58,045 nucleotides of DNA, taken from positions 1-58,045 of IMG/VR virus record IMGVR_UViG_3300013306_000019; one strand, given 5' to 3'. The stretch's first letter is position 1; the number at the start of each line of letters is the position of its first letter. Below, piece by piece: positions 1-43,403 of this stretch. The DNA is from a virus. The position numbers and the translations under genes are program-made. The notes under the pieces were generated by a model. It worked only from the letters and a program-made list of their open reading frames with translations. It did no database searches and was not told the origin of the DNA.

Positions 1-1
1 C

Positions 2-169
2 TTCGATCCCAACATGGAACCTCTGGTTCCCGTTGACACTGTCGGTACCATCAGCAAGGTCTACGAAGACCATCCTGCGGGGGTAGGATATGATGTAACT
101 GTCAACACAACGGAAGGAACCGTAGAAGACTTTTTCTTCCACGAGTTCGAACTCACGGAGGCCAACTAA
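2..169 (+). CDS. 3' end of a hypothetical gene, cut by the window edge
   Basis: Fifty-five codons are open from base 2 to the TAA at 167-169; the 5' end lies outside the window. The visible part contains VGTISKVYED and VNTTEGTVEDFF, an alternating β-strand pattern that loosely resembles small DUF4926-type β proteins; that resemblance is by eye and weak. It ends one base before the next ATG, so the two genes are probably co-transcribed. An internal ATG at 14 could be the true start, but this cannot be decided here. Confidence 0.6.
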   Translation, partial: FDPNMEPLVPVDTVGTISKVYEDHPAGVGYDVTVNTTEGTVEDFFFHEFELTEAN

Positions 170-170
170 C

Positions 171-455
171 ATGTGCCCTTCAGATAAACTTCAGGAAGCT
201 TCACTGGCTTCAGCAGACAATACCGGAAAATACTGGACTCAGCGTGAAATTGACACACTGTTCCAGCTTTTCGAAGAAGGCTTCAACCTCTCGCAGATTG
301 CTGAAGGTTTGGGTCGTACCTATTATGGAGTTACCAAGATGCACGAACTCGGTAAGAAGGAAGCGACGCATCTCGTAAACTCGGGACGGTCGTCCTCCAA
401 GCGAGTCCTTCCCTTTGATAAGGGTCAGTCGAGCTGGGGTCCTGACGAATGGTGA
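171..455 (+). CDS. small helix-turn-helix (SANT/Myb-like) protein
   Basis: 94 aa. Residues about 21-62 (KYWTQREIDTLFQLFEEGFN, then LSQIAEGLGRTYYGVTKM) have the W-x4-D-x-L ... I-A-x-x-L-x-R-T spacing of a SANT/Myb-like or Gcr-like helix-turn-helix, so DNA binding is likely. The Ser/Arg-rich tail (RSSSKRV) may add non-specific DNA contact. It starts 1 nt after the stop of the preceding gene. A regulatory role is inferred; the target is unknown. Confidence 0.75.
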   Translation: MCPSDKLQEASLASADNTGKYWTQREIDTLFQLFEEGFNLSQIAEGLGRTYYGVTKMHELGKKEATHLVNSGRSSSKRVLPFDKGQSSWGPDEW

Positions 456-480
456 TTGTGTAAAAGTTTCCACTTAAGTA

Positions 481-509
481 TGTACATCGGTTGGGTTCCG
501 TTATATATT
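481..509 (+). promoter_or_regulatory. promoter for the AT-hook gene
   Basis: TGTACA at 481-486, 17-bp spacer, TATATT at 504-509. The predicted +1 is about 516 and the leader reads AACAGCAAAACAGC, a diverged version of the AUCAACAAC leader seen at other promoters in the window. An AAAGGA ribosome site precedes the ATG at 584. Confidence 0.75.
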
Positions 510-583
510 GATACCAACAGCAAAACAGCTGCAGAATCAAACAATCCAATCGTATCATACCAAAGACAAAGGAAACAACCACC

Positions 584-973
584 ATGGCACGTCAGCTTCG
601 CACCTTCCGAAACGGCGAGAACGTTTCACTTTCCCTCCACTCTTCCAGCGGTCGAGACCCTTGGGTCGTAGAAGCGACCATCATCGGTCGAGATGGAACC
701 GGATCGGAAGAGGTCATCCACCTCCACGACTCTGCCGATCCCCGCAAAGCGGTGTGGGACATCTACCGCTTCAAGGGCCACTGGGCATGGGGCACTACGG
801 GAAATCGAGTCACCGTCTACGAAGAGAACCCCAAGCCTCGCAAGCCACGGACTCGTCGAACTCCTTCGACAGCTCCCGCACCTTCAGCTCCAGCAGCTGC
901 AAAGACTGCACCCACTCCGAACGCAGTACCCAAGCGCCGTGGTCGTCCTCGCAAAGTAACGGTGGACGCCTAA
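584..973 (+). CDS. AT-hook protein, putative DNA-binding
   Basis: 129 aa. The first 85 residues form a compact β-rich domain (WVVEATIIGRDG, AVWDIYRFKGHWAWG). It is followed by a Pro/Ala/Lys linker (about 86-115) and a C-terminal KRRGRPRKV, the classic AT-hook core GRP flanked by basic residues, which binds the minor groove of A/T-rich DNA. The start is set by an AAAGGA site about 10 nt upstream. Role is inferred as nucleoid-like or transcriptional. It has its own promoter at 481-509 and terminator at 992-1032. Confidence 0.8.
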   Translation: MARQLRTFRNGENVSLSLHSSSGRDPWVVEATIIGRDGTGSEEVIHLHDSADPRKAVWDIYRFKGHWAWGTTGNRVTVYEENPKPRKPRTRRTPSTAPAPSAPAAAKTAPTPNAVPKRRGRPRKVTVDA

Positions 974-991
974 GCCGGTCACTAAGGAAAC

Positions 992-1032
992 GGTCCTCAT
1001 CACTCATACGGAGTGATTGAGGGCCTTTTCTT
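992..1032 (+). terminator. Rho-independent terminator after the AT-hook gene
   Basis: Imperfect stem: GGTCCTCATCACTC pairs with GAGTGATTGAGGGCC (one bulge), followed by TTTTCTTT at 1025-1032. Confidence 0.85.
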
Positions 1033-1067
1033 TGTCACGATGCAGAACCATACACCTCATGAGCCAG

Positions 1068-1096
1068 TGTACATCAGACGTCACCAGGCATACAAT
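1068..1096 (+). promoter_or_regulatory. promoter for a small non-coding RNA
   Basis: TGTACA at 1068-1073, 17-bp spacer, TACAAT at 1091-1096; predicted +1 at 1103. No plausible ORF follows before the next terminator hairpin, so the transcript appears to be non-coding. Confidence 0.75.
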
Positions 1097-1102
1097 GATC
1101 TT

Positions 1103-1210
1103 GGTAGGGGTTTTATTGTTTGACCTACCCGTGTTGACGATATTTTTGTTGAGGTATCGGTCGGCAGGAGAGTCCTCGTTTTCTTCCCCCATAGAAGCGA
1201 GGACTCTTCC
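1103..1210 (+). ncRNA. putative small regulatory RNA with three hairpins
   Basis: The transcript expected from the promoter at 1068-1096 starts directly on a hairpin: GGTAGG (1103-1108) pairs with CCTACC (1124-1129). A second hairpin, CGATA (1138-1142) with TATCG (1155-1159), exposes the loop TTTTTGTTGAGG. A 10-bp terminator stem follows (1169-1178 with 1198-1207). The loop word TTGTTGA (1146-1152) is complementary to UCAACAA in the conserved 5' leader of many mRNAs in this window. I see no good ORF with a ribosome site here. Function is inferred. Confidence 0.65.
1169..1210 (+). terminator. terminator hairpin of the small RNA
   Basis: Perfect 10-bp stem AGAGTCCTCG / CGAGGACTCT with a 19-nt loop, followed by a weak T-tract (TTCCATTT). 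Confidence 0.65.
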
Positions 1211-1220
1211 ATTTAAGAAG

Positions 1221-1249
1221 TGTACATCTCCTCTTCACTAGTATATTGT
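1221..1249 (+). promoter_or_regulatory. promoter for the 1283-2206 operon
   Basis: TGTACA at 1221-1226, 17-bp spacer, TATTGT at 1244-1249. Predicted +1 is A1256, so the mRNA begins AUCAACAACUAC; AAAAGGA lies before the ATG at 1283. Confidence 0.85.
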
Positions 1250-1282
1250 AGTCTTATCAACAACTACTGAAAAGGAAACACA

Positions 1283-1510
1283 ATGAAACTCTTCATCACT
1301 TCCCACCCCAACGGACAGATCAAGCACGAAGAAATCGAGCTGCCTGAACGTTTCCTCGGTCTCTCGATCGAACTCGACGGTGGAGCCATCTTCCAAATCG
1401 ATGCCAGTGACGACACTGAAGAATCGATTGAAGTTCGTGAAGCCACCTTCCGCAAACTTGGAATCACGCCCAAGTCCGCCAACTCCATCCAGCTGAAAGG
1501 TATCATCTAA
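1283..1510 (+). CDS. hypothetical protein
   Basis: 75 aa, acidic, no recognised motif; alternating hydrophobic pattern suggests a small α/β fold (MKLFITSHPNGQ, FLGLSIELDGGAIFQI). First gene of a three-gene operon behind the promoter at 1221, with AAAAGGA nine bases before ATG. The next gene starts 1 nt after its stop. Confidence 0.8.
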   Translation: MKLFITSHPNGQIKHEEIELPERFLGLSIELDGGAIFQIDASDDTEESIEVREATFRKLGITPKSANSIQLKGII

Positions 1511-1511
1511 C

Positions 1512-1940
1512 ATGGAAAACTTCACTCTCACCCCGAACGACTTCCTCGAAGAGACTTCGACTCCATTCAATGAAGGTCGGTACCCCTATACCTACGCCTG
1601 CGATTTCATTCGCTCGCACAACCTCAGCATTTGTGAAACTATGGATCTTCCCTTCGAAGAGAACATCGTCAACTCCCGTGCTGAAGCATCAGGCTTCATG
1701 AAGAAACTGAATGCTGGCGATAGCAACTACCGTCACATCGCACTCGTCTTCGCAGATGCGTTTTGCATTGAGCATCGCATCACTGTTCCCGAGATTCTTG
1801 GCTTCCAAGTCAACCTTGTTGGAACTGAGTACGCCGTCGGCCATGTCTTCCCCACTCATGAAGCTGCTCTCGCATGGACTCAGAAAAATCCCGCAAGGAC
1901 TGGCTACTACTCCATCGACACCATCTTCACAAAGGATTAA
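1512..1940 (+). CDS. hypothetical protein
   Basis: 142 aa, acidic, no family recognised. It is tightly coupled to the genes on both sides (1 nt and 2 nt gaps), so it is translated from the same mRNA. The C-terminal part (YAVGHVFPTHEAALAWTQKN) has the β-strand then 'F-x-T-x-E-A-A-x-A-W' helix seen in several other small proteins of this window. Function unknown. Confidence 0.8.
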   Translation: MENFTLTPNDFLEETSTPFNEGRYPYTYACDFIRSHNLSICETMDLPFEENIVNSRAEASGFMKKLNAGDSNYRHIALVFADAFCIEHRITVPEILGFQVNLVGTEYAVGHVFPTHEAALAWTQKNPARTGYYSIDTIFTKD

Positions 1941-1942
1941 TC

Positions 1943-2206
1943 ATGACAAACTGGAAGCACCAACTCAACATCGCCCACATCTTCCACAACGATGATCTCA
2001 CGATCGCTGAACGAGCAAGTAACATCTCCCTCACCATCAAGTCCCGCCCTTGGTACGACGACGTCAACTACAACGGCGAACTCGAAGACCTTCTTGACGA
2101 ACTCACAGATGCCGGCAAGGAAGACAACATCCCGATGTTCGACGCAGTATGGGACGCCATCTACGACATCTTCAATGCTCACAAGGTTTGGGTGACAGCG
2201 CAGTAA
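1943..2206 (+). CDS. hypothetical protein
   Basis: 87 aa starting at MTNWKHQLNIAH. I chose this ATG (two bases after the previous stop, preceded by AAAGGA) over an upstream in-frame ATG at 1874 that overlaps the preceding gene by 67 nt. Acidic and predicted helical (DLLDELTDAGKEDN); function unknown. Last gene of the 1283 operon. Confidence 0.8.
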   Translation: MTNWKHQLNIAHIFHNDDLTIAERASNISLTIKSRPWYDDVNYNGELEDLLDELTDAGKEDNIPMFDAVWDAIYDIFNAHKVWVTAQ

Positions 2207-2230
2207 ATACTGAGTAACATTGTTTAGGAG

Positions 2231-2259
2231 TGTACATCTCCTAGACAGTGTTATATAGT
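2231..2259 (+). promoter_or_regulatory. promoter for the 2299 gene
   Basis: TGTACA at 2231-2236, 17-bp spacer, TATAGT at 2254-2259. Predicted +1 A2266 gives a leader beginning AUCAACAACAACC; AAAGGA precedes the ATG. Confidence 0.9.
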
Positions 2260-2298
2260 ATTCATATCAACAACAACCATTCAAACAAAGGAAACACA

Positions 2299-2616
2299 AT
2301 GGAAACTCGCAAGCTCAACCACGGACAAGCTTACATCCTCGGCTCCATTGCAAAATGGTCAGACCATTACCGAATGGAACTCACTCGCCTCAACAGTTCA
2401 GTCCAAGAGGGACTCGAGTACGGACCACGTCGAGGACTCAACTTCGACGCAGCGACAAAAGCAAACTTCGCCAGTCGGTTGGTCGATGAACTCCTTGATC
2501 AAGCACACGAGATGTTCGACCTCACGAACGAAGAAATCTCACAGATCACTTCGATGGCAATGAAGCCCAGCGATTCAGGAACTCGTCGTCGCTACCATGA
2601 AGGTGACGAATACTAG
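2299..2616 (+). CDS. hypothetical protein
   Basis: 105 aa starting METRKLNHGQ. The ATG at 2299 sits 8 nt after AAAGGA; an upstream in-frame ATG at 2248 would fall in the promoter -35/-10 spacer and is rejected. The sequence is predicted mostly helical (FASRLVDELLDQAHEMFDL) with an Arg-rich end (GTRRRYHEG). Function unknown. Single-gene unit between two promoters. Confidence 0.8.
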   Translation: METRKLNHGQAYILGSIAKWSDHYRMELTRLNSSVQEGLEYGPRRGLNFDAATKANFASRLVDELLDQAHEMFDLTNEEISQITSMAMKPSDSGTRRRYHEGDEY

Positions 2617-2619
2617 GAT

Positions 2620-2648
2620 TGTACATTTGATCCTAAATAGCTTATAGT
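2620..2648 (+). promoter_or_regulatory. promoter for the 2686 gene and downstream RNA
   Basis: TGTACA at 2620-2625, 17-bp spacer, TATAGT at 2643-2648; predicted +1 A2655 gives leader AUCAACAACACAUC, with AAAGGA before the ATG at 2686. Confidence 0.9.
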
Positions 2649-2685
2649 TAACTTATCAACAACACATCAACTCAAAGGAAAAACA

Positions 2686-3051
2686 ATGACTGCCACGGCA
2701 ATTGAGAACACCAAGAAGCTCACCAAAGCTGAGCTCGCAGAACTTAAGTTGCAGAAGCACGCACTCGCCACCGCAGCGATCAAGCGACTCCGCAACCGTT
2801 ACAATGAAACGGCAAACCTGAAGAAGGCCCTCGACGATGAGCAAGCTCTCATTAAGGCACGCATCGCAGAAGAATTGGCCAAGATCGATATGAAGGACTT
2901 CATCGACATAGATGGAACTCCGATCATTGGCTACCGATTTACCAATAAGAATGAGCTCGACATGGCGAAGGTGACCAAGAAGTACGGCGAGAATGCTCTC
3001 GACGACTGCTACACCCTCAAAACCGGCAAGAGCTTCTTCTCTAAGAGGTAA
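2686..3051 (+). CDS. hypothetical coiled-coil protein
   Basis: 121 aa. Residues about 10-70 are Lys/Glu/Ala/Leu rich (KKLTKAELAELKLQKHALAT, LKKALDDEQALIKARIAEEL), a probable coiled coil; the C-terminal part is a small α/β segment (TPIIGYRFTNKNELDM). Function unknown. Its transcript probably continues through the structured RNA at 3058-3214 to the terminator there, so that RNA may be its 3' UTR. Confidence 0.8.
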   Translation: MTATAIENTKKLTKAELAELKLQKHALATAAIKRLRNRYNETANLKKALDDEQALIKARIAEELAKIDMKDFIDIDGTPIIGYRFTNKNELDMAKVTKKYGENALDDCYTLKTGKSFFSKR

Positions 3052-3057
3052 AATAGA

Positions 3058-3214
3058 CTTGGAGGGATTTCTTTCTCTTTGCCCTCCAAGACCGCAAGGG
3101 AACGTTGTTGATAATTCCTACCTTGCGAAGGACTGGTCTAACCGTTGTTGATAATTCAAGACGACCAGTCGGAGGGACCGTGGTTGAGCCTAGCTCCCAC
3201 GGTCCTTCCTTTTT
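3058..3214 (+). ncRNA. structured RNA with two leader-complementary loops (putative trans-acting regulator)
   Basis: Four consecutive hairpins start 6 nt after the 2686 gene stop. A: CTTGGAGGG (3058-3066) with CCCTCCAAG (3082-3090). B: CGCAAGG (3093-3099) with CCTTGCG (3121-3127). C: GACTGGTC (3131-3138) with GACCAGTC (3163-3170). D: terminator (3175-3205). Stems B and C differ completely in sequence, but their loops contain the identical 15-mer CGTTGTTGATAATTC (3103-3117 and 3143-3157). Its first part, GUUGUUGAU, is the exact complement of AUCAACAAC, the predicted 5' end of many mRNAs in this window. Different stems holding the same loop argue for selection on the loop. Whether it is a separate RNA or a processed 3' UTR is not known. 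Confidence 0.75.
3175..3214 (+). terminator. Rho-independent terminator of the 2686/RNA transcript
   Basis: 9-bp perfect stem GGACCGTGG / CCACGGTCC with an inner GAG/CTC pair and a CCTAG loop, then TTCCTTTTTT. Confidence 0.9.
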
Positions 3215-3223
3215 AAGTTTGAT

Positions 3224-3252
3224 TGTACTTTTGCATTGTCCTGGTATATAGT
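3224..3252 (+). promoter_or_regulatory. promoter for the SprT-like gene
   Basis: TGTACT at 3224-3229, 17-bp spacer, TATAGT at 3247-3252; +1 A3259 gives leader AUCAACAACCC; AAAGGA precedes ATG 3291. Confidence 0.85.
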
Positions 3253-3290
3253 AGAACTATCAACAACCCATATTCAACAAAGGATAAACA

Positions 3291-3881
3291 ATGTCGATGA
3301 CCCAGAAAGAAGCCGAGAAGCTCGCACTCGGACTCATGAGTGAACACAACCTCAACTGGCCCGCATGGGGTTTCCGAATGACGCGTCACAAGCTTCTCCT
3401 TGGTCGCTGCGTTCACAACCGCTACAATGGCGGAACGATCGAACTCTCGAAGAACTACCTTCACCTCTCGTATGAAGAGATTCGAGACACTCTCCTCCAC
3501 GAAATCGCTCACGCACTCTGCGGACCGGGTGAAGGACATGGCGCAGCATGGAAGCGCATGTGCATTAAGATCGGTGCTAAACCGAATCCGCGAGCTGACC
3601 TTCGTGAGAAGGACAACCCTGAGTTCAAGTGGACGGGTCTTTGCCCGAGCAACCACAAGATTCAACGACACGCTCTCACGGAAAAGGGACGGCGTATGGC
3701 ATGTGGACAGTGCTGCCGTGAACTTAATGGTGGTCAGTTCAGTGGCAAGTACCTATTCGAGTGGCACCTTACGGCTGATCTGAAAGCCGCGGGTGTATCG
3801 GGTGTAAGACTACTCAACCAGCCGGAAGCCGCCTCACAGGAGCCCACCAGGATTTCAGAGATAATGGCTCTTCAGTACTAG
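3291..3881 (+). CDS. SprT-like zinc metalloprotease-family protein
   Basis: 196 aa. The zinc-protease motif HEIAH is at residues 70-74 (LLHEIAHALCG), with a third ligand candidate at H83 (GHGAAW), as in SprT-like/Spartan family proteins that cleave DNA-protein crosslinks. A C-terminal zinc ribbon is likely from the C-x2-C pair (MACGQCC) and an upstream Cys (LCPSN). Length fits the SprT-like family (about 150-200 aa). It has its own promoter with the AUCAACAAC leader. In phages such proteins may process proteins on DNA; the substrate here is unknown. Confidence 0.85.
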   Translation: MSMTQKEAEKLALGLMSEHNLNWPAWGFRMTRHKLLLGRCVHNRYNGGTIELSKNYLHLSYEEIRDTLLHEIAHALCGPGEGHGAAWKRMCIKIGAKPNPRADLREKDNPEFKWTGLCPSNHKIQRHALTEKGRRMACGQCCRELNGGQFSGKYLFEWHLTADLKAAGVSGVRLLNQPEAASQEPTRISEIMALQY

Positions 3882-3910
3882 TGTACAAAGTCCGCTAATT
3901 AGTATACAGT
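3882..3910 (+). promoter_or_regulatory. promoter for the 3950 gene
   Basis: TGTACA at 3882-3887, directly after the previous TAG, 17-bp spacer, TACAGT at 3905-3910; +1 A3917 gives leader AUCAACAACAAC, then AAAGGA. Confidence 0.85.
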
Positions 3911-3949
3911 ATAACTATCAACAACAACAAACCAAACAAAGGAAATACA

Positions 3950-4336
3950 ATGAAGACTGAAATCAAGGAAATCGTCAAGGACAACAAGGGTATCGAGTAC
4001 TACCTCATCAAAGCGAACCGCGTCAATTGGATCGTGGAGCGCATCTCGGATGGAGTTCGACTGCAGGGACCCGGAACAATGTTCACCTACCTTGCAACGA
4101 AGGAAGTTGAAGCAGCATCATTCGATGCTCTCATTCGTATCGGTGCATTGGTTCGAGTCAACCCCAATGCAGACATCTGGAAGTATACCAAGTTTACCAA
4201 TGCCTACGACTACGAACAGAAGTTCGTGATCATGGGATTCGGCAAAGTACCTGGCGAATTCAAAGTCATCGAGCTCGGCGGCAATGCTCGCAACACCTAC
4301 TACGGTATCCACGGCAAGGACTTGGTACTCGCATAG
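3950..4336 (+). CDS. hypothetical protein
   Basis: 128 aa, no recognised domain. Two β-rich halves are visible (EYYLIKANRVNWIVERISDG; KFVIMGFGKVPGEFKVIEL). The start is fixed by AAAGGA eight bases upstream in a leader of the conserved type. Monocistronic between promoters at 3882 and 4358. Function unknown. Confidence 0.8.
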   Translation: MKTEIKEIVKDNKGIEYYLIKANRVNWIVERISDGVRLQGPGTMFTYLATKEVEAASFDALIRIGALVRVNPNADIWKYTKFTNAYDYEQKFVIMGFGKVPGEFKVIELGGNARNTYYGIHGKDLVLA

Positions 4337-4357
4337 TCGCATCTTACGCCGCTTCAT

Positions 4358-4386
4358 TGTACATCTCCAATGAAGCAGTGTATGAT
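4358..4386 (+). promoter_or_regulatory. promoter for the 4421-5018 operon
   Basis: TGTACA at 4358-4363, 17-bp spacer, TATGAT at 4381-4386; +1 A4393 gives leader AUCAGCAACUC (A to G variant), then AAAGGA. Confidence 0.85.
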
Positions 4387-4420
4387 ATTACTATCAGCAA
4401 CTCAAACAAAGGAAAAGCAA

Positions 4421-4642
4421 ATGTTCGAACCACTCAAGGCACAGATCGAAAAGACTTCTCGCAACCTCGAACGAGGAGAAGTCCTTCTCGCAGATCGTAT
4501 CTTCCTCAACCATGTTCTCGATGAACTCGAATTCATCGTTACGAATGATGCACTTCTCACCCGTCGACTCGATGCTGCAGACGCACTCGACAGTCTCATC
4601 GGCTCCTGCAATGAGCTCGTTGAAGATGGACTGGAGGACTGA
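4421..4642 (+). CDS. hypothetical protein
   Basis: 73 aa from MFEPLKAQIEKTSRN. The ATG at 4421 follows AAAGGA; an upstream in-frame ATG at 4370 lies in the promoter spacer and is rejected. Predicted all-helical and acidic. Its TGA overlaps the next ATG (TGATG). Function unknown. Confidence 0.8.
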   Translation: MFEPLKAQIEKTSRNLERGEVLLADRIFLNHVLDELEFIVTNDALLTRRLDAADALDSLIGSCNELVEDGLED

Positions 4643-4803
4643 TGTATCTCTGTAAGAACTGCAATAAGCCAATTCGTTGGACTGAAATGATGGGTTGGGT
4701 TCATGGAGCCAATGGCGAAGGATATGTTCAAGCCTGCGGTTTCGATGCTTTTGAAACGACAGCAACACCCAAACCTGAAGACATAGAATGGTTCACCAAA
4801 TGA
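4642..4803 (+). CDS. small zinc-knuckle-like protein
   Basis: 53 aa, starting on the ATG that overlaps the previous TGA. It begins MYLCKNCNKPIRW, a C-x2-C pair typical of half a zinc ribbon; a further Cys (VQACGF) and a His (WVHGANG) could complete a site. It ends in an ATGA overlap with the next gene. Function unknown; its reality rests on the overlaps and the Cys motif. Confidence 0.65.
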   Translation: MYLCKNCNKPIRWTEMMGWVHGANGEGYVQACGFDAFETTATPKPEDIEWFTK

Positions 4804-5018
4804 TTAAGAAACCACACAAGGGCTTCGTTCAACTGGAAGTACCTCTCCGTGTTGAAGTGAATCCTCGACTAACAGTTAAGTTCGAGGATGGCATCGTCAC
4901 ACTCTACTCTCGCGGTAACACCATTCGAATGACTGAATGGGAATTCGATGAAGTGTCAATGATGCATTCAGTGCAGAAGATTAGTGAGATCGTGGCTCGT
5001 CAGAAGCCAAAGAAATAG
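4800..5018 (+). CDS. hypothetical protein
   Basis: 72 aa starting MIKKPHKGFVQ at the ATG overlapping the previous TGA (AATGA). An alternative in-frame ATG at 4788 would overlap more. β-rich and basic at both ends (ending RQKPKK). Function unknown. Last gene of the 4421 operon; the next promoter begins 1 nt after its stop. Confidence 0.75.
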   Translation: MIKKPHKGFVQLEVPLRVEVNPRLTVKFEDGIVTLYSRGNTIRMTEWEFDEVSMMHSVQKISEIVARQKPKK

Positions 5019-5047
5019 TGTACATCTGAAGGGTCCTGTTATATAGT
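5019..5047 (+). promoter_or_regulatory. promoter for the 5082-5924 operon
   Basis: TGTACA at 5019-5024, 17-bp spacer, TATAGT at 5042-5047; +1 A5054 gives leader AUCAGCAACUC, followed by AAAGGA. Confidence 0.9.
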
Positions 5048-5081
5048 AGACTTATCAGCAACTCAAACAAAGGACAAGACA

Positions 5082-5285
5082 ATGACAACACAATTCGAAT
5101 ACCCTCTTAGTGTTCACGTCGGAGACAAGGTCGTGATCAACGACACTGAAGAGCACCGCACCTACCTCGAGACGGTTACCTCGGAACCTGAACGGAACGG
5201 CGAGAAGGTTTCCTTCTGGACGGACAAGCGTCTTCTCTTCTGCGATCCAGGCCTGAAGATTCAGATTCGGCGTGAAGGCAAATGA
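5082..5285 (+). CDS. hypothetical protein
   Basis: 67 aa, β-rich (YPLSVHVGDKVVINDTEEH), resembling small SH3-like or β-barrel proteins by pattern only. First of four genes joined by 4-nt ATGA overlaps. Function unknown. Confidence 0.75.
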   Translation: MTTQFEYPLSVHVGDKVVINDTEEHRTYLETVTSEPERNGEKVSFWTDKRLLFCDPGLKIQIRREGK

Positions 5286-5467
5286 ATGCCAAACACCTCA
5301 GTGAGGAGATTCAAGAGGCACATGTCCCACACTGGACAGTACTGATTAAGACACAAGACGGGTTCTACTTTGAGATCGACTCCATCGACTTCAAGCCCAC
5401 CTCAGATCAAGGAGGCCTGGTGGTCCTCACGGCCTCTCCATCCCTTCAGAAGGATGCTACATCATGA
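5282..5467 (+). CDS. hypothetical protein
   Basis: 61 aa (MNAKHLSEEIQEAHVPHW...). It overlaps both neighbours by 4 nt (ATGA), the standard translational coupling in this operon. The central β pattern (WTVLIKTQDGFYFEIDSI) has no family I recognise. Confidence 0.75.
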   Translation: MNAKHLSEEIQEAHVPHWTVLIKTQDGFYFEIDSIDFKPTSDQGGLVVLTASPSLQKDATS

Positions 5468-5721
5468 ATCGGTTTGCAGAGGCCCCAAGGACTGACCCAG
5501 CACTCGTCGAAGGTGTTACGAAGACACCTCGACCCATGAACAAGTACGTCGAGTTCGGTGCTCGCATTCCAACGGTCTTCGTCCTGAAGTACAACGGTCG
5601 GAAGAGCCGCGTATTCCAAGCCGTGTATCCCGAGTTTCGAGCCTTCTGGATTCGGAACGACAACAAGCAAATCTTCCTCGACGATTCAACTGTCGACAAG
5701 ATTTTCAAAGGAGAAGAATGA
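5464..5721 (+). CDS. hypothetical protein
   Basis: 85 aa, basic, with a Lys/Arg-rich middle (FVLKYNGRKSRVFQAVYPEF) that could contact nucleic acid. Coupled by 4-nt overlaps on both sides. Function unknown. Confidence 0.75.
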   Translation: MNRFAEAPRTDPALVEGVTKTPRPMNKYVEFGARIPTVFVLKYNGRKSRVFQAVYPEFRAFWIRNDNKQIFLDDSTVDKIFKGEE

Positions 5722-5924
5722 TGAATGACAAGGAGAAAGCAGTAGCCGCTTATCGCGAGGCTTACAAGAAATACGCATCAGTCAGTATCGAACAAGAGGA
5801 AGCGGCGATTGAACTGAAGTCCGCTTCACGAGCCGCCCTTGATCTAGGGGTTCCATTACAAGACCTCAGATCAGTCCGCTTCGAAGTCGACAACCACGCG
5901 GAGTTCATGACGGACTGGAAATAA
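5718..5924 (+). CDS. hypothetical helical protein
   Basis: 68 aa, predicted helical (KAVAAYREAYKKYASVSIEQ). Starts at an ATGATG whose first ATG overlaps the previous TGA; AAAGGAGAA is a strong ribosome site. Last gene of the + strand early block, ending at the convergent terminator. Confidence 0.75.
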   Translation: MMNDKEKAVAAYREAYKKYASVSIEQEEAAIELKSASRAALDLGVPLQDLRSVRFEVDNHAEFMTDWK

Positions 5925-5925
5925 G

Positions 5926-5960
5926 AAAGGCACTCTCATTTCGAGAGTGCCTTTTCTTTT
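5926..5960. terminator. bidirectional terminator between converging operons
   Basis: Perfect 9-bp core stem GGCACTCTC / GAGAGTGCC with an ATTTC loop, flanked by AAA and TTTTCTTTT; it ends the + strand early operon and lies at the 3' end of the - strand terminase gene. Confidence 0.9.
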
Positions 5961-7431
5961 ATACTCGACGAGTACGAGGAGTGAAGGTACGTGCTTTACC
6001 TGTACCGCGCATTGAGGGAAGCTTTCGCCCTAGAGATGTATGCACCTTCACCTGACGTGAACGAAGCTCATAGGGAGGTGCGATGAGCAAGGCAGTGATA
6101 CCCCATACCATTGCATCCAATCGGTCAGGCGAGTCAGCACCCTTTTGGTTAGGGTCCCAGAATACCATTTGCTCTTCAAGCTTCTCGAGAAAGTTCCATA
6201 TCTTCACTCGACCGCGTGACATGGCCATTACGATTGGCTCGGCTCGCATTGCTTTACCCTTTGTCGCTACGACAGTGTGGATGATTAGGGAAGGATCAAT
6301 GTTGTGAATGACTCCGCGAACGAGGTCACCACCTTGGTTACGCTCAATGACGATGTGTTTAGTATCCCACTCCTTTGCCGCTTTCACAACCTCCATTGCC
6401 CAGTGTTCGGGCTTGGCCTTCAGGCTGTAGTCTTGGAGAATGAATGCTGTGCGTTTACTGAGGTCCTTCTCTTGGGTCGCGCCTATGACTACTATGCCAC
6501 ACTCATCTCTAGGCTCAGCGGCCACCGTGGGGTCAACCGCGACAACCCTTAGGTGAGTATAAGGAGGATCGTCAGGGTCCTCAATGCGATTGTCAATGAT
6601 CATGTCCTCTGTGAACACGGCTCCTTGGACACCATCCAGCATTTGACCTTCAATTTCCTGCTTGTAAAGGTCTTCATTACCCTCGTACGCTCGTTCGAGG
6701 TTTTCGATATACGTGTGACCAAGGTTTGTGTTCTCAGTTGTGGCACCCGAAACAACGACGATCTTGTTCTTCTTGTCGTGTGACTTCTCAATCATGTCCT
6801 TCATGAACTGTGTTCGCTTAGGAGTGGTCGCGAGAAGGATTTGAGGTGGGGTCTTTTCGTCCAATGTCAGACGTGCACAAACAACCGCGTTGCTCCATGC
6901 TGTAGCACCTGATGCGTCAGGCTTTGTGGGCCATGCAGCGACCTCATCGCCTACGAGATAGTGGCACTGGAAACCACGCAACTGGTCAGGTGAGTCCGCA
7001 GAGAACAGCAAGGCATACGAGCCATTAGGCCATTCGATCTTACGGATAGAGGGTTTGTACGTGGGCATCTCATCAGGTGCATGGACCTTGATGATGCCTG
7101 ATTCACCCAACGCGATGATGTCACGAGCATCCGCAGCTGTTCTCGCCACAATGCCGATGATTGTTCCTGGACGGGCTAACGCTTTCTCTCTCACCCATTC
7201 GGCGAGCATTCGCGTCTTACCAAAACCACGGCCTGCGCACGCAAGAAGGATGTGCCAGTCTGATTTCGGTGCGAACTGAGATGGTCTGCCCCAGAAATTC
7301 CAGTCATACTTTAGTGATTGGAGCTGTTCGGGTGTATATTTAGCGAAAAACTCTTTTTGCTGCTCTTTTGGCAATTGTGCGACTTTTTGCGCAATTGACA
7401 TCTTTTTCGGATCTACGACGATATTTGACAT
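5959..7431 (-). CDS. terminase large subunit
   Basis: 490 aa, typical TerL length. The ATPase half carries Walker A at residues 66-73 (AGRGFGKT), Walker B in HYLVGDEVA and a coupling motif LLATTPKR. The nuclease half has the acidic triad pattern: VVAVDPT, IVIERNQGG and DRLDAMVWGI. It would package DNA into proheads at the portal, cutting the concatemer. The ATG at 7431 follows the promoter at 7477-7506. The distance to the candidate small subunit (8864-9412) with several small genes between is unusual but not unique. No portal or capsid gene is adjacent in this window. Confidence 0.95.
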   Translation of the reverse strand: MSNIVVDPKKMSIAQKVAQLPKEQQKEFFAKYTPEQLQSLKYDWNFWGRPSQFAPKSDWHILLACAGRGFGKTRMLAEWVREKALARPGTIIGIVARTAADARDIIALGESGIIKVHAPDEMPTYKPSIRKIEWPNGSYALLFSADSPDQLRGFQCHYLVGDEVAAWPTKPDASGATAWSNAVVCARLTLDEKTPPQILLATTPKRTQFMKDMIEKSHDKKNKIVVVSGATTENTNLGHTYIENLERAYEGNEDLYKQEIEGQMLDGVQGAVFTEDMIIDNRIEDPDDPPYTHLRVVAVDPTVAAEPRDECGIVVIGATQEKDLSKRTAFILQDYSLKAKPEHWAMEVVKAAKEWDTKHIVIERNQGGDLVRGVIHNIDPSLIIHTVVATKGKAMRAEPIVMAMSRGRVKIWNFLEKLEEQMVFWDPNQKGADSPDRLDAMVWGITALLIAPPYELRSRQVKVHTSLGRKLPSMRGTGKARTFTPRTRRV

Positions 7432-11080: not shown

Positions 11081-11672
11081 CCTTGGCTCCAACTTCGTCC
11101 TGTGACACGGTAGCTTCGTCCTCGCTGATGCCCTTGAACTGATCAAGACTTACACTGAACCGCTCTAGCTCCTTTTCCTCAAGGTACTCTTCAGCTCGTT
11201 CAATTCGAGTGACTTCACTCCAAGGAAGAAACGTCATCACTGTTCGCTTCAACAACACGAGTTCTTCGTGAGGCTCCATAAGTGCATTCATCTGTGAAAT
11301 CATCACATCAGTAATTTCCTGCACCATCTCGCTTTTCTTCTTCAAACCTTTCAGAGAAATCTCTTCCTCTTCAGCAATGGCCTTCAGCTCCGCAACAGTC
11401 GACCTAAACAGACTCTCTCGAACCAGGTTCGCAGTCTCTCCATCAACCTGTTCTTGAACCGTCTTCATGCGGTACGTCGCACGATAGATCACACCAAAGT
11501 CTGTGAGACCCACATACGCTCCGACTGACTGACCACCATCTGCGTGCTGAATCAGAATCTCAGAACCTGGATCGAAGATTCGACCATTCACTTCGTCTTC
11601 AGAAACTCCGTCAAAATCCGGATCGTCTACGCCATCTTCATCCATACCGTCTTCACTTCCTTTTTCAGTCAT
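11073..11672 (-). CDS. acidic protein with a SAP/HeH-like helical motif, leaderless mRNA
   Basis: 199 aa starting MTEKGSEDGMDEDGVDD. The ATG at 11672 equals the predicted +1 of the promoter at 11679-11707. After an Asp/Glu-rich N-terminus and a β-rich middle, the segment TVAELKAIAEEEEISLKGLK followed by KKSEMVQEI matches the helix-extension-helix of SAP/HeH/Rho-N type nucleic-acid-binding motifs. It ends in another acidic tail. Its gene borders the repeat-rich non-coding region, so a replication or DNA-mimic role is possible but unproven. Confidence 0.7.
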   Translation of the reverse strand: MTEKGSEDGMDEDGVDDPDFDGVSEDEVNGRIFDPGSEILIQHADGGQSVGAYVGLTDFGVIYRATYRMKTVQEQVDGETANLVRESLFRSTVAELKAIAEEEEISLKGLKKKSEMVQEITDVMISQMNALMEPHEELVLLKRTVMTFLPWSEVTRIERAEEYLEEKELERFSVSLDQFKGISEDEATVSQDEVGAKDE

Positions 11673-37409: not shown

Positions 37410-37715
37410 TTACCACTTAAAGCCTTCATAAGGCAGTGAAGGCTTAGGGGCGACGCGATCAAACAGTCTGGACTGCTCTGTAGCATTCCAACACTGTTCC
37501 TCTGCCAAAGCAACCCACTTGTCCATTGAAGGGCGAAGATAGTACTCAGTCTGATAGCGGAAACGAAGCTCACCGAATTTTTCTTTTACTGAGATGAGCC
37601 TGTAGTCAGGATCAATTCTCTGTAAACGGTTGTTCAGATCAATGAGTATAGGAAACCACGTGTAATGATCGATTGTGCAATCCTCAATCATTTTAAGACG
37701 TTCAAAATTCTTCAT
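37410..37715 (-). CDS. hypothetical protein
   Basis: 101 aa, with aromatic pattern (YTWFPILIDLNNRLQRIDPD; KEKFGELRFRYQTEYYLRPS) often seen in small phage proteins of the 'KFGxLRFY' kind, whose function is unknown to me. Overlaps the upstream gene by 1 nt. Confidence 0.75.
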   Translation of the reverse strand: MKNFERLKMIEDCTIDHYTWFPILIDLNNRLQRIDPDYRLISVKEKFGELRFRYQTEYYLRPSMDKWVALAEEQCWNATEQSRLFDRVAPKPSLPYEGFKW

Positions 37716-38443
37716 CAGCGGCCCTTAGAAGTAGGCAGGAGCCACAGATCAGTCTCATTGAAGATGTAGTTGGACATCTCAGGAAAATTGGAGAGTGCTT
37801 GGATAGTCGCAAACGTGTCAAATGCCATTGCCTTCGTCAGCTCATCTCGAATCCGATCCTGTGCAACCTTCTGCATCAGATTGTGAATCGAGAGTGGAAC
37901 CTGCTGAGTAATGAAGTAGAAGACATCCTCATCCAGTATGAAATCCAAAGTGATTGCAAAACGGAAAGCTCGTAGCATTCTCAATGGGTCTTCTTCGAGA
38001 CGATCAGTACTTCCAACGCATCGGATGATTCTCTTCTCAATGTCTTTAACACCACCGTGAGGGTCGAGGATATTCCCCTTCTCATCAATGGCAATTGCAT
38101 TCATTGTGAAGTCACGGCGTGCCAGGTCATCATAGATGGTGCCCATTTCAACAGAGTCAGGTCGACGTCCATCGGAATAGGCACCATCTTTGCGACATAG
38201 GACAAAGTCAAAGGTCTGGCCTGAAAGATTGAAGTCTGCGAAACTCCATGGCAATTTGCGACGTGCTCGAATTGTCAGGTACTGCGGAGTCTCTAAGAAG
38301 ATTTCGAAATCATTCTTTAGCAGCCAGTCTTTCATGGCTTCGTAAGATTCGGCTTCAACTGAAAAGTCAAAGTCGTGCGAGAGGCGACCCATAATGTGGT
38401 CACGAACTGCACCACCTACGAGGTAAAGATGTACGTTTGTCAT
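37715..38443 (-). CDS. tRNA nucleotidyltransferase/poly(A) polymerase-family protein (CCA-adding type)
   Basis: 242 aa. The class II head is intact: LVGGAVRDHIMGRLSHDFDF (GG-x-V-R-D and D-x-D) and a motif B/C region (RRDFTMNAIAID, then DPHGGVKDIEKRIIRCVG, and RLEEDPLRMLRAFRFA). The enzyme is shorter than cellular CCA enzymes (about 400 aa) because the C-terminal body/tail is reduced. It could repair or add CCA ends; twelve of the thirteen tRNA genes here encode no CCA. Alternatively it may be a poly(A) polymerase. Confidence 0.85.
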   Translation of the reverse strand: MTNVHLYLVGGAVRDHIMGRLSHDFDFSVEAESYEAMKDWLLKNDFEIFLETPQYLTIRARRKLPWSFADFNLSGQTFDFVLCRKDGAYSDGRRPDSVEMGTIYDDLARRDFTMNAIAIDEKGNILDPHGGVKDIEKRIIRCVGSTDRLEEDPLRMLRAFRFAITLDFILDEDVFYFITQQVPLSIHNLMQKVAQDRIRDELTKAMAFDTFATIQALSNFPEMSNYIFNETDLWLLPTSKGR

Positions 38444-38460
38444 TTTGTCCTTTAGATTGT

Positions 38461-38727
38461 TTACGAGTTCTCTGAACCCTTATGTCGATTGTATACTAGT
38501 CGGTCAGTTTCATCTACCACATCATCGACTATATCCTGAGCTCGCATGATGGACTCATACTTAATCCAGTGGTGGCGGCAAAAGAGAAGATCGAGCCCTG
38601 ACGTGAGAACTACTTGTACGTAGGCCTGGGCTCCATCTCTGTCACAGCGATGGTTGGCATTTAGGGTGTATTGACGAGGTTTGGTGGGTGTCTCAGACTT
38701 AGCCTGGGTAGCTGTAGCAATACTCAT
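38461..38727 (-). CDS. DUF7455-like zinc protein
   Basis: 88 aa. HRCDRDGAQAYVQVVLTSGL then LLFCRHHWIKYE is the C-D-x(n)-A-Q-A-Y-V ... L-x-F-C-x-H-H pattern of a small actinobacterial and phage zinc protein. It is of unknown function. In cellular members the first pair is C-x2-C (CDRC); here the second Cys is replaced (CDRD), so the site may use fewer ligands. Confidence 0.75.
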   Translation of the reverse strand: MSIATATQAKSETPTKPRQYTLNANHRCDRDGAQAYVQVVLTSGLDLLFCRHHWIKYESIMRAQDIVDDVVDETDRLVYNRHKGSENS

Positions 38728-38758
38728 AACCGCTCCTTAGTAGATAACTAATTCTAAA

Positions 38759-39688
38759 TCAGAAGTCAGAGTCAATGGGGCCAACACGGAAGAGTGTCAG
38801 TCCGATTTCCTCCCACATCCGACAAACCTTGAGACGGTCATCGAACACACCAACTACACTGTAGTTTGGTGCCACGTGCTTGTAGAACAACTCGTGCTTG
38901 ACGATGTCATCAGGAATGTATGAATCCTTTGGACGCATGAACAGAGCTTCACCGAACAGCTCGTGCTTGATCAGCCAATCCATTGTCTCGTTGTAGCAAA
39001 CCTCATCACGACCAGACATGAAGATGACTTTGTAGCCAGCCTTGATCAAAGAGCGCGCAACCTTGATGACTGCCCAGATCGGAGAATCTTCTCCAACACG
39101 GTGCCAATCGAAAGGTCCACGTCCAAACATCTTTGCCAATGTGCCATCGATGTCGAAGAGGAAGACTTCCTCCAGCTCCTCATTTGGAACGTAAGTCGTC
39201 CACTTTCCCACTTCAGTTCCTTCAGAAGAGAAGTCAGGAACAATAGGAAACTTGCCCTTTGTGATGTAGCGCTGGTGGAAATTGCGGATGACGGCTTCAC
39301 CAACCTGACGGTCAGTGGCTGCAGCATCACGACGAACAGCTTCTTCAACGTCGACTGGAACATCTTCGATGACCAGAGGAATTTTCATCTTCTCAGCCTT
39401 TGACTGCCATTCACGCACAGTCTTGAGGCGAAGGTTCGTTGCATCGACACAAACTGAAAGCTGGGCTTTCAATGCAGCAGTCACCATTGCGTGTTCGATT
39501 GTGGAGACAGTCTCTTCCTGCTGGCGCTCCAGTCCCCAGTACATTCCATACAGCTGGAAACGGATGTCATCGCGGTTAATACGGACTCGTCCACTGGGGT
39601 TTTCAGCAACCCATGCCTTGGCAAGAGTGCTTTTGCCGCTTCGAGGGATTCCTCGGTACAACTTGATTACTTGTTCTTCGATAGTCAT
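38759..39688 (-). CDS. pnk: polynucleotide kinase-phosphatase (T4 Pnkp-like), leaderless mRNA
   Basis: 309 aa. N-terminal 5'-kinase with P-loop at 13-21 (GIPRSGKST) and R-I-N-R-D-D; C-terminal 3'-phosphatase of the HAD family (LFDIDGTLA, about residue 176, then MSGRDE). This is the full T4 Pnkp architecture. It heals 2',3'-cyclic phosphate and 5'-OH RNA ends left by anticodon nucleases so that RNA ligase (42152-43345) can seal them. Promoter at 39695-39723 predicts +1 at its ATG. Confidence 0.9.
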   Translation of the reverse strand: MTIEEQVIKLYRGIPRSGKSTLAKAWVAENPSGRVRINRDDIRFQLYGMYWGLERQQEETVSTIEHAMVTAALKAQLSVCVDATNLRLKTVREWQSKAEKMKIPLVIEDVPVDVEEAVRRDAAATDRQVGEAVIRNFHQRYITKGKFPIVPDFSSEGTEVGKWTTYVPNEELEEVFLFDIDGTLAKMFGRGPFDWHRVGEDSPIWAVIKVARSLIKAGYKVIFMSGRDEVCYNETMDWLIKHELFGEALFMRPKDSYIPDDIVKHELFYKHVAPNYSVVGVFDDRLKVCRMWEEIGLTLFRVGPIDSDF

Positions 39689-39694
39689 ATTTGA

Positions 39695-39723
39695 ATATTA
39701 TCCTAGTTCTCTCATTTTGTACA
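39695..39723 (-). promoter_or_regulatory. leaderless promoter for pnk
   Basis: On the - strand: TGTACA (39723-39718), 17-bp spacer, TAATAT (39700-39695), six bases, ATG. Confidence 0.8.
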
Positions 39724-39756
39724 ATTCTTCTACGAAACCAAACTGATAGATAGACA

Positions 39757-40023
39757 TCAGAGTTCCACCTCATCAAGTGCTCGCATCAATTCACCGAGGT
39801 CGCTGAACTTCTTCTCAGCTACAGTCTCAGTCCAACGGGTAGGTTCGTGCAAAGTCTTAATGACCTTGACAACCGTCCAAGAGTTAGTGTCTGTGTACTC
39901 GCAAGAGTAGCCAGCCCATTCAGTGATAGTCTCTGTTGCCGTGTTCATTACGACTACCAGAGAGTCATCGGTGACTCCGCAGATACGACGGAGTCGCTTG
40001 TCCATTTCTTCTTTGAAGCTCAT
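39757..40023 (-). CDS. hypothetical protein
   Basis: 88 aa. β-rich core (DDSLVVVMNTATETITEWAG) with a C-terminal acidic helix (FSDLGELMRALDEVEL). Shares one base with the upstream stop. Function unknown. Confidence 0.75.
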   Translation of the reverse strand: MSFKEEMDKRLRRICGVTDDSLVVVMNTATETITEWAGYSCEYTDTNSWTVVKVIKTLHEPTRWTETVAEKKFSDLGELMRALDEVEL

Positions 40024-40259
40024 TATTTCAACCCTTCCAGTGCGTTGAGGCAGTTGTGGATGTGTTCCCAGAGCTGTTCTCGATTCATGCCTACATAGGC
40101 AAAAGACTCATCCCCATACTGATCAACTGTCTCAACGCCTAGTTCAACGTAATCATTACCGAGAACTTCGATACTAATTTTTTCCTGTTGATTGGAAGAA
40201 CGATTAACATCAATTGTGAGATTCTGCTCTGTGCCAAGTCTCGTGTATTCAGTAGCCAT
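40023..40259 (-). CDS. hypothetical protein
   Basis: 78 aa with acidic middle (NDYVELGVETVDQYGDESFA) and a His-rich C-terminal helix (EQLWEHIHNCLNALEGLK). First gene behind the promoter at 40301; AAAGGACAAAG lies before the ATG. Confidence 0.75.
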   Translation of the reverse strand: MATEYTRLGTEQNLTIDVNRSSNQQEKISIEVLGNDYVELGVETVDQYGDESFAYVGMNREQLWEHIHNCLNALEGLK

Positions 40260-40300
40260 TTTCTTTGTCCTTTAAGTAGTGTGGTGTTGCTGATAGAATT

Positions 40301-40329
40301 ACTATATCCTACCAGCAACACCATGTACA
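40301..40329 (-). promoter_or_regulatory. promoter for the 39757-40259 genes, with inverted-repeat spacer
   Basis: On the - strand: TGTACA (40329-40324), 17-bp spacer, TATAGT (40306-40301); +1 A40294, leader AUCAGCAACACC. The spacer contains GGTGTTGCTG (on the - strand), the exact complement of the leader CAGCAACACC, so the -10 sits inside a 10-bp inverted repeat (40283-40292 with 40313-40322). Confidence 0.85.
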
Positions 40330-40330
40330 C

Positions 40331-41419
40331 TTAAGAAAGGACAGTCTTCCGGGCCCAGTTGGGAGAAGTGAATGTCATGTTCTGAGTGATGATCTGATCA
40401 ATAACCGAGACAGCCGTTTTCATCCGTCGTTCATGGTCACCACAGACAAGTACCCAAGAGTGTCCTCGCTTCGTGAGAAGCTGCTTGAAGTTCTCTGTCA
40501 TTCGTTCGCGGAGATGTTCACCATCACGGTAGCCATCATCCTCAAAGTCAACACCTTCATCATCAGTGATCAAGTACAGATCACGTCGAGGCAAAGGGTT
40601 GTCGATCAGGAGCCGCGAGTCCTTGTCTGTGTAACGCTCTTCCCAGATGCTTGTAGCCAATACATCGGTGTCTGCGATGACTAGAGGGGCACTATCAGCA
40701 GCATAGTTTTCCATCTGCTGCTGAGACTTTGCAATGTGCTGGAAGTCTTCCTTCGTCCACTTCAAGTCATCCATTCCAGCATCTGGATTTGCATAGCGGA
40801 GATGAGTCAGCCAGTTTTCAGTGAAGATACGACCATACTCAGGCACAGTTCCCATCTCAGGAAACTGAGGTCGGTAGTGGTCAACAAGAGCTTCAGTGAG
40901 AGTTGTCGTTCCAGTTGACTCTGCACCGACAACGATGATGCGAGTTGCCATTTCCTGTCGAGCAGGTGCAATGATCTGGTGCCAGTTTTCTGCATGCTGG
41001 TCTCGACAGGCTGTACCACTGACATGGAACTTGGAGCGAGACTGGTCAATGACTACATTCTCTGCTTCGAACCAATCAGCCAGTTCCTCACCATAGGCTT
41101 CTGAAGTGAAGACTTTGTGGATTTTACCGTTGAACTGCTTCTCAAGAGCCAGACGCATCTGCTCTACATGAGCTTTCCAGATTTCCCTGGAGTGGTAGTC
41201 TTCAGGTGTATCGTTCTTCTGCCCGATGAAGCGGACATTTCGCTGTGACTTGAACTCTTCTTGCAGCCACTCGACTCTCTGATCTACTTCAATACTTTCG
41301 AACCGGTTGCCAAGAACAATAACGAAGAGGAAGTCGACCTGCTTTGCTGCTTCTGAAATCAGATGAGCGTGGCCTTTGTGGGGTGGGTAGAACTTGCCGA
41401 TTACGAGACCGTTGGTCAT
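40331..41419 (-). CDS. nadR: NadR-like bifunctional NMN adenylyltransferase / nicotinamide riboside kinase
   Basis: 362 aa. NMNAT domain first: GKFYPPHKGH (8-17), the (H/T)-x-G-H nucleotidyl motif, and ISGTACRD-like FHVSGTACR near 131-139. The C-terminal half is an NR kinase with P-loop GAESTGTTT (165-173) and DTD/DVLA and RxDLY features. It would convert imported NR to NMN to NAD+. It lacks the N-terminal HTH repressor of enterobacterial NadR. It overlaps the adjacent pnuC gene by 1 nt, so uptake and phosphorylation are co-expressed. Confidence 0.9.
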   Translation of the reverse strand: MTNGLVIGKFYPPHKGHAHLISEAAKQVDFLFVIVLGNRFESIEVDQRVEWLQEEFKSQRNVRFIGQKNDTPEDYHSREIWKAHVEQMRLALEKQFNGKIHKVFTSEAYGEELADWFEAENVVIDQSRSKFHVSGTACRDQHAENWHQIIAPARQEMATRIIVVGAESTGTTTLTEALVDHYRPQFPEMGTVPEYGRIFTENWLTHLRYANPDAGMDDLKWTKEDFQHIAKSQQQMENYAADSAPLVIADTDVLATSIWEERYTDKDSRLLIDNPLPRRDLYLITDDEGVDFEDDGYRDGEHLRERMTENFKQLLTKRGHSWVLVCGDHERRMKTAVSVIDQIITQNMTFTSPNWARKTVLS

Positions 41420-42078
41420 TAGACAGTCACCAGTTCCGGAGTCTCCTGAGCTTCTTCAACCTTGCAGGTTTTCTTCCAGTCGAAGAGACCGTAGATGCAG
41501 AGTGCAAAGAAGCCGATGTAGAGGATTGCCGTCAGTGTGAGACCCTTGCTGAAGTATAGGGGAATCGAGACAAGGTCGATGACGATCCAAACGTACCAGT
41601 GCTGGAAAATCTTTTTGGCCTGGCCGTAAGTGGCAACGAGAGAAGCTGCAAGGATAAATGCGTCAGGGATGGGAACACTCGAGTTGGTTGCAAAGGAAAG
41701 AAGAGCACCGATTGCTACTGTACCGACGACAATTGCTGCAAGACCATTGATAGCTTCACTTGTGTAGGTGTCTCGGATTGGAAGGTCATTGCGGAGTTCA
41801 GTCGATTTGGAACCTCGGCTCCAGTTGTACCAGCCATACGCTGCAACAACTGCGAAGACAACCTGCAGGAAGGAGTCTGCATAGAGACCCGATCCGAGGA
41901 ACAGGATGGTGAAGGCGACGTTGTTGAGAATACCTACTGGCCAGTTCCAAAGGTACTGTTTAGCAACTGCAAAGACGCAGGCTGCACCAGTTACGAAGCC
42001 GATGATTTCGATCCAACTGACTGGAGCTCCGAACAATTCGAAGGGAGCCGAGGTCATCCAGGTAATAAGTTCATTCAT
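41419..42078 (-). CDS. pnuC: PnuC-like nicotinamide riboside transporter
   Basis: 219 aa with six or seven membrane helices (ITGAACVFAVAKQYLWNWPV; LAAIVVGTVAIGALLSFAT; LTAILYIGFFALCIYGL). The WNWPVGILNN motif and the W-Y-x-W pair (GWYNW, HWYVW) are PnuC hallmarks. It imports NR for the adjacent NadR kinase. ATG follows AAAAGGAACAAAACAAACA in the conserved leader of the promoter at 42122. Confidence 0.9.
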   Translation of the reverse strand: MNELITWMTSAPFELFGAPVSWIEIIGFVTGAACVFAVAKQYLWNWPVGILNNVAFTILFLGSGLYADSFLQVVFAVVAAYGWYNWSRGSKSTELRNDLPIRDTYTSEAINGLAAIVVGTVAIGALLSFATNSSVPIPDAFILAASLVATYGQAKKIFQHWYVWIVIDLVSIPLYFSKGLTLTAILYIGFFALCIYGLFDWKKTCKVEEAQETPELVTV

Positions 42079-42121
42079 TGTTTGTTTTGTTCCTTTTTAG
42101 GTGGTTTGTGTTGATATAAAG

Positions 42122-42150
42122 ACTCTATACAACTTTTTAGAGAATGTACA
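42122..42150 (-). promoter_or_regulatory. promoter for the pnuC-nadR operon
   Basis: On the - strand: TGTACA (42150-42145), 17-bp spacer, TAGAGT (42127-42122); +1 gives leader AUCAACACAAACC. Confidence 0.8.
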
Positions 42151-42151
42151 C

Positions 42152-43345: not shown

Positions 43346-43374
43346 TTACTTTTCCTTTAGTTGATGTTAGAACT

Positions 43375-43403
43375 ACAATATACTACTTAGCAGCAGATGT
43401 ACA
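43375..43403 (-). promoter_or_regulatory. promoter for the RNA ligase gene
   Basis: On the - strand: TGTACA (43403-43398), 17-bp spacer, TATTGT (43380-43375); leader starts AACAUCAACUAAAGG, a variant of the conserved leader. Confidence 0.8.

Follow-up and report, generated by a model that had tools for sequence, protein, structure and literature searches.

A phage 3'-UTR RNA with twin hairpin loops complementary to the predicted common 5' end of early mRNAs: a candidate antisense regulator of an early gene class

Background

Small RNAs that steer phage development by base pairing include the CI RNA of phage P4, the C4 RNA of P1 and P7, and sar of P22, each directed at a single leader or message, at a few of them, or at host mRNAs. 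For lambda OOP, P22 sas, VP882 VpdS and lambda PreS, the available portion of a review (PMC12197685) likewise describes base pairing with targets of this limited kind; none of the phage small RNAs in that portion is described as aimed at the common 5' end of a large early gene class. The initial annotation of the DNA analyzed here, which had proposed an RNA of this kind, knew of no described phage system of the same form, and our search of the open-access literature agreed in returning none aimed at a common early leader.

Redundant loop seeds that act on mRNA leaders are known from bacteria, i.e., from the LhrC family of Listeria monocytogenes (PMC4132741, PMC4691137) and from RNAIII of Staphylococcus aureus (PMC2837412). 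Like these, the RNA described here is structured, ends in a terminator and carries redundant, unpaired hairpin-loop seeds that pair (here by prediction) with mRNA leaders, and its additional pyrimidine loop (H0) resembles their CU-rich seeds. However, the bacterial RNAs place CU-rich seeds on the SD regions of a few unrelated mRNAs that have no 5'-terminal sequence in common, whereas the seed of the phage RNA complements a standardised 5' terminus that nearly every early gene of its own virus carries. In group A Streptococcus, FasX base-pairs with its target mRNA at the 5' end and stabilises it, using separate motifs for different outcomes (PMC4691137); its motif UUGUUUUCUCUCUCUC (for the RBS of cpa) also resembles the H0 loop, but FasX is bacterial, acts on individual targets and lacks twin identical loops.

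Cluster K mycobacteriophages carry a short conserved sequence before many genes, together with upstream inverted repeats (SAS/ESAS; PMC3203893). In the part of that report available to us, SAS lies at the translation start site, whereas the phage leader considered here would be at the 5' terminus of the mRNA, from which it is mostly 24-33 nt to the start codon; the same part of the report mentions no complementary RNA and leaves open whether an RNA or a protein is the binder (PMC3203893).

Results

The window, i.e., the whole stretch of DNA analyzed, is IMG/VR virus record IMGVR_UViG_3300013306_000019 (58,045 bases). Judged by its sequence, it is a piece of a large tailed phage, an uncultured bacterial virus; its terminase is approx. 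50% identical to those of the 190-kb Arthrobacter phages Mimi, Racecar and Atuin. The + strand genes from position 1 to about 5,900 have, in most cases, their own promoter (TGTACA, 17 nt, TATAGT-like), and behind each such early promoter follow a leader starting with TATCAACAAC or TATCAGCAAC, a purine-rich SD and a start codon. Transcription starts were placed by promoter geometry throughout. Farther along the window, genes for tRNA nucleotidyltransferase, polynucleotide kinase, RNA ligase, NMN adenylyltransferase and PnuC are grouped at 37715-45901 (- strand), and at least nine tRNAs lie elsewhere; this RNA-repair and NAD group and the tRNAs may serve as a defence against host tRNA cleavage or NAD depletion.

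The transcript that would carry the RNA has the following features:

2620-2648, + strand: promoter of the host transcript (TGTACA-17-TATAGT), assigned by geometry only; predicted +1 at 2655
2655-2663, + strand: the host transcript's own leader AUCAACAAC; the relatives have AUCAACAGC, which is G-U compatible
2686-3051, + strand: host ORF, 121 aa, coiled-coil-like; the relatives' proteins are 89% (G001) and 61% (G002) identical
3058-3090, + strand: hairpin H0, stem CUUGGAGGG/CCCUCCAAG, with the 15-nt pyrimidine loop AUUUCUUUCUCUUUG at 3067-3081
3093-3127, + strand: hairpin H1, anti-leader loop GUUGUUGAUA at 3104-3113
3131-3170, + strand: hairpin H2, anti-leader loop GUUGUUGAUA at 3144-3153
3175-3214 (hairpin 3175-3205 plus T-run), + strand: intrinsic terminator, GGACCGUGG/CCACGGUCC, conserved UU bulge, GAG/CUC, then UUCCUUUUU

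Positions 3058-3214 lie in the 3' UTR of gene 2686-3051. As a search directly upstream of 3058 found no promoter, the RNA would have to come from the 3' UTR of the transcript 2655-3214. For the host protein, an AlphaFold model was shallow (pLDDT 69) and too weak for a fold search.

Region 3052-3216 folds with -72.2 kcal/mol (z = -6.8; no shuffled sequence was as good) and presents repeated words in its hairpin loops. The initial annotation had described two adjacent hairpins with a shared 15-nt loop word, CGTTGTTGATAATTC; the same-loop pair is present, but the fold comprises four hairpins (H0, H1, H2 and the terminator), and while the 15-nt word holds in the window, its invariant core is only the 10-mer GUUGUUGAUA, the flanking C and AUUC varying in the relatives. 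CGTTGTTGATAATTC occurs exactly at 3103-3117 and 3143-3157, and with up to two mismatches there are four matches as compared to 0.11 expected. H1 and H2 have unrelated stems and share the unpaired word GUUGUUGAUA, which exactly complements TATCAACAAC, the sequence from -1 to +9 at the phage's promoters. Within window positions 1-6000, the early strand has the word GTTGTTGAT in the H1 and H2 loops only; on the early strands of all three contigs that carry the RNA, other copies are reverse complements of opposite-strand leaders, plus one copy elsewhere. A search of Rfam 15 at the gathering score matched only tRNAs in the window, and the RNA at 3058-3214 had no match.

Two other IMG/VR contigs, IMGVR_UViG_3300013308_000031 (G001) and IMGVR_UViG_3300013102_000040 (G002), carry the same RNA in the corresponding position, behind gene 2686 and close to where the early array ends. 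The H0 stem and loop are identical in all three phages, with one extra outer pair in G002, while the stems of H1, H2 and the terminator differ in each phage and are all intact. Of 24 stem pairs common to the three phages (H1, H2 and terminator combined), 20 show compensatory double changes, four are invariant and none is broken; all six H1 and H2 loops retain GUUGUUGAUA. Both relatives thus keep both loops and the leaders as the stems change with compensation, which was one of the comparisons that could have refuted the reading of the initial annotation, and its argument from changing stems and a fixed loop gains from these counts. Since the stems turn over while the loop stays frozen, this comparison of sequences provides strong evidence that the loops are the functional part of the RNA; it establishes the RNA structure and the constraint on the loops. 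No covariation between loop and leader was found among the three carriers, because the leader is unchanged among them.

The terminator stems have been rebuilt as well, yet in all of them (window 3175-3205; G001, L123 about 6498-6531; and the G002 homologue) the UU bulge persists, and after it comes GAG...CUC enclosing a short loop whose end is UA(G). In both relatives an ORF that, by eye, looks like a GIY-YIG homing endonuclease is inserted between the RNA and the SprT gene (L123 6537-7130; L253 9900-10440, - strand); its absence from the window places the point of insertion immediately behind the terminator of the RNA.

We located the leaders at the promoters that the initial annotation had named (1221, 2231, 2620, 3224 and 3882), and TATCAACAAC is indeed present at 1255, 2265, 2654, 3258 and 3916; TATCAGCAAC occurs at 4392 and 5053, each leader lying behind a promoter of the TGTACA-17-TATAGT type. 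Apart from the host transcript's own leader, which had also been counted among the complementary messages and proves to be one of them, the predicted targets in the window are:

1256-1264, + strand: leader AUCAACAAC, promoter 1221
2266-2274, + strand: leader AUCAACAAC, promoter 2231
3259-3267, + strand: leader AUCAACAAC, promoter 3224, SprT-like gene
3917-3925, + strand: leader AUCAACAAC, promoter 3882
4393-4401, + strand: leader AUCAGCAAC, promoter 4358; pairs 9/9 with one G-U
5054-5062, + strand: leader AUCAGCAAC, promoter 5019; pairs 9/9 with one G-U

In a set of 64 promoters collected blind to the leader, predicted transcripts from 61 pair 9/9 with the loop sequence GUUGUUGAU (G-U allowed), as compared to 0.5% of shuffled leaders, and 51 of the 64 have TATCAACAAC unchanged. 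A leader-guided search raised the number to 90 promoters (13 in the window, 40 in G001 and 37 in G002), so that the gene class sharing the leader is much larger than was first seen; 82 of these pair 9/9 with G-U allowed, and position -1 is T in 87. The complement of the loop thus coincides with predicted nt 1-9 of the mRNAs, their 5' ends being those given by promoter geometry, and the distance from leader to start codon is mostly 24-33 nt. Comparison across the contigs establishes, at the level of prediction, accessible complementarity between the loops and nearly all leaders.

The early promoters of window positions 1-5100, G001 and G002 also show inverted repeats around the -35 element, with arms that differ between promoters (at least 5 bp in 37 of 90, as compared to five with arms shuffled), and in Mimi (L276 37700-42700) longer arms surround TTGACA. 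Such a repeat is probably the terminator hairpin of the upstream gene overlapping the next promoter; hairpin promoters are a possible explanation. In the spacer of one G001 promoter (L247 13625-13690) lies an anti-leader copy, which makes up a long palindrome together with that promoter's leader (GAGTGGTTGTTGATATA...TATATCAACAACCACTC).

The mean energy of the loop-leader duplex is -11.1 kcal/mol as compared to -4.1 kcal/mol for shuffled loops (0 of 200 as good). The predicted cost of opening is 0.7-1.5 kcal/mol for five of the six loops; H2 of the window is predicted to be partly closed (4.0 kcal/mol). The leaders are predicted to be open (probability unpaired 0.91, cost 0.34). Changes at A positions inside the leader block go to G in 15 cases and to C or T in six (n = 21), as compared to 27 and 228, respectively, just downstream of the block (n = 255; P = 1 × 10-9, Fisher's exact test, a value inflated by orthology since related promoters are not independent). 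G still pairs with U, and A-to-G changes keep the duplex at -9.3 kcal/mol whereas A-to-C changes reduce it to -6.4 kcal/mol. The match between the H0 loop and SD regions was marginal (4% of shuffled loops were as good in one run and 5.5% in another), and contact of this loop with the SD is a possibility.

In Mimi and Atuin, both Arthrobacter phages, the layout is similar and the leader, which begins ACCAAC, is looser. No twin anti-leader loops with GTTGKTGGTA or GTTGGT were found on the sense strand of either genome, and the loop-leader covariation sought there met with this same absence. In a like-for-like comparison, leader nt 7-9 read A[AG]C in 88-93% of cases in the three carriers as compared to 37% in Mimi and 20% in Atuin. 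On these sequences, the leader seems to be older than the RNA and to have another role, the strict 9-10 nt form going with the RNA; a looser leader in phages lacking the RNA implies that the leader has some other function too.

The RNA with anti-leader loops is known from three contigs only. Scans of IMG/VR for the exact 15-mer and for twin copies of the 10-mer gave, among the matches listed, mostly chance occurrences without paired hairpins; complete IMG/VR scans with the promoter/leader and H0 patterns returned only the two relatives and scattered single matches, and a profile search with the host protein returned only the same two relatives. Gene 2686 was not found in named phages. A scan of genome contigs gave 32 matches, few of which had hairpins at both words, and these few showed tandem-repeat or coding-like stems.

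A second locus (window 1068-1215, + strand; G001, L123 about 4178-4330; G002, L253 about 11440-11600, - strand) is, by its sequence features, a probable noncoding RNA gene. A promoter (TGTACA-17-TACAAT) with neither leader nor ORF is followed by three hairpins, the last one strong (z = -5.1 for the fold in the window). The loop of the first hairpin, G(G/C)UUUU(A/G)UUGUUUGA, is kept in the three phages, with the stem changed in G002. We rejected the idea that this RNA (1103-1213) targets the leaders via TTGTTTGA, as 30% of shuffles were as good for the window loop; in the same test, 5% were as good for the G002 loop.

Discussion

Our preferred reading is that the 3'-UTR RNA probably base-pairs in trans with early mRNAs at their 5' ends and, most likely, represses them. 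The structured RNA would derive from the 3' UTR of gene 2686 as a processed or terminated 3' fragment, or act as part of the mRNA. Its twin loops would offer GUUGUUGAU(A) as seeds for pairing with AUCAACAAC, the common early-mRNA 5' terminus; that the early leaders are the partners is well supported by the comparisons of sequence. Because the leaders are short, a bulky hairpin RNA bound to nt 1-9 would lie within reach of the initiating 30S subunit, so that repression of translation and faster decay of the early class would be the most likely outcome. In all three phages the RNA is encoded close to the distal end of the early array; expressed, as predicted, from a promoter that itself has the leader (2620), it would build up as early expression proceeds, until the whole early class, including its own transcript by negative feedback, would be repressed. 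Where the transcripts start, that a discrete RNA is made, that pairing occurs in vivo and which way it regulates are our inferences, the last being a guess from distances. A 9-10 bp A/U-rich seed would be modest for an actinobacterial host, in which no RNA chaperone is known to us.

The same pairing could have the opposite sign, the RNA capping early-mRNA 5' ends with a duplex that protects them from 5'-end-dependent decay. This FasX-like stabilisation is the main rival, and we think it unlikely. Complementarity extends over precisely nt 1-9, the site at which 5'-end-dependent nucleases would be blocked by a duplex, and leaves the SD itself uncovered, and FasX stabilises ska mRNA through structure at its 5' end (PMC4691137); yet leaders as short as these would let a bound RNA hinder 30S binding, and a position near the distal end of the early array better fits a late brake. 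Repression in trans is hence the reading that we favor from the sequence.

It is less probable still, and in our view rather improbable, that pairing of the loops is confined to the 5' end of the mRNA on which they lie, for 5'-3' closure or autoregulation of gene 2686, with the other matches a by-product of the shared leader. Loops and a matching leader do occur on one transcript in all three phages, but in G001 and G002 that leader is the weaker form AUCAACAGC, other leaders being mostly perfect; a second identical loop would be needless for pairing in cis, and any RNA acting in trans would hit the remaining leaders. We consider it very improbable that the loops bind a protein or another nucleic acid, e.g., the non-template strand of open promoters or promoter DNA from -1 to +9. 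The conserved loop has 10 nt, and its last A matches the T at -1, a position not expected in the RNA; this T may, however, reflect a preference at the start site, the tenth loop base could have a structural role, no protein would recognise both a sequence and its complement, and we know of no precedent for an R-loop formed by a structured hairpin loop on duplex DNA. Least credible of all is an ordinary 3'-UTR and terminator cluster in which a duplicated hairpin kept its loop word by chance or recent copying, as the stems differ wholly within and between genomes while the word is constant, which rules out recent copying and strongly disfavors this reading even with three contigs only, and the probability of a chance match is negligible.

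Trans-acting repression thus stands as the preferred reading, and the RNA can be set against repeated-loop antisense sRNAs. At least two unpaired seed copies and a terminator are present in the three phages (H1, H2 and the terminator), and complementarity to leaders exceeds chance with both partners predicted to be accessible. A CU-rich, SD-masking seed as in LhrC and RNAIII was not found, as the twin loops pair with nt 1-9 and the H0-SD match is marginal. By this analogy the RNA would work like RNAs of the RNAIII/LhrC type, with an unusual system-level design in that it would be aimed at the early leader of its own virus. On the broader proposal, that a common 5' tag on separately promoted early genes would let one multi-loop RNA regulate dozens of mRNAs as a viral post-transcriptional master switch, we are evenly divided.

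The switch from early to late phage genes is usually attributed to transcription factors, to modification of RNA polymerase and to nucleases. If the reading proposed here is true, one viral antisense RNA could control a whole early gene class at once; a shared mRNA tag read by such an RNA would represent a different principle, offering compact, programmable control of dozens of genes. The same idea would provide a test for other phages with puzzling conserved leaders, e.g., the SAS sites of Cluster K mycobacteriophages.
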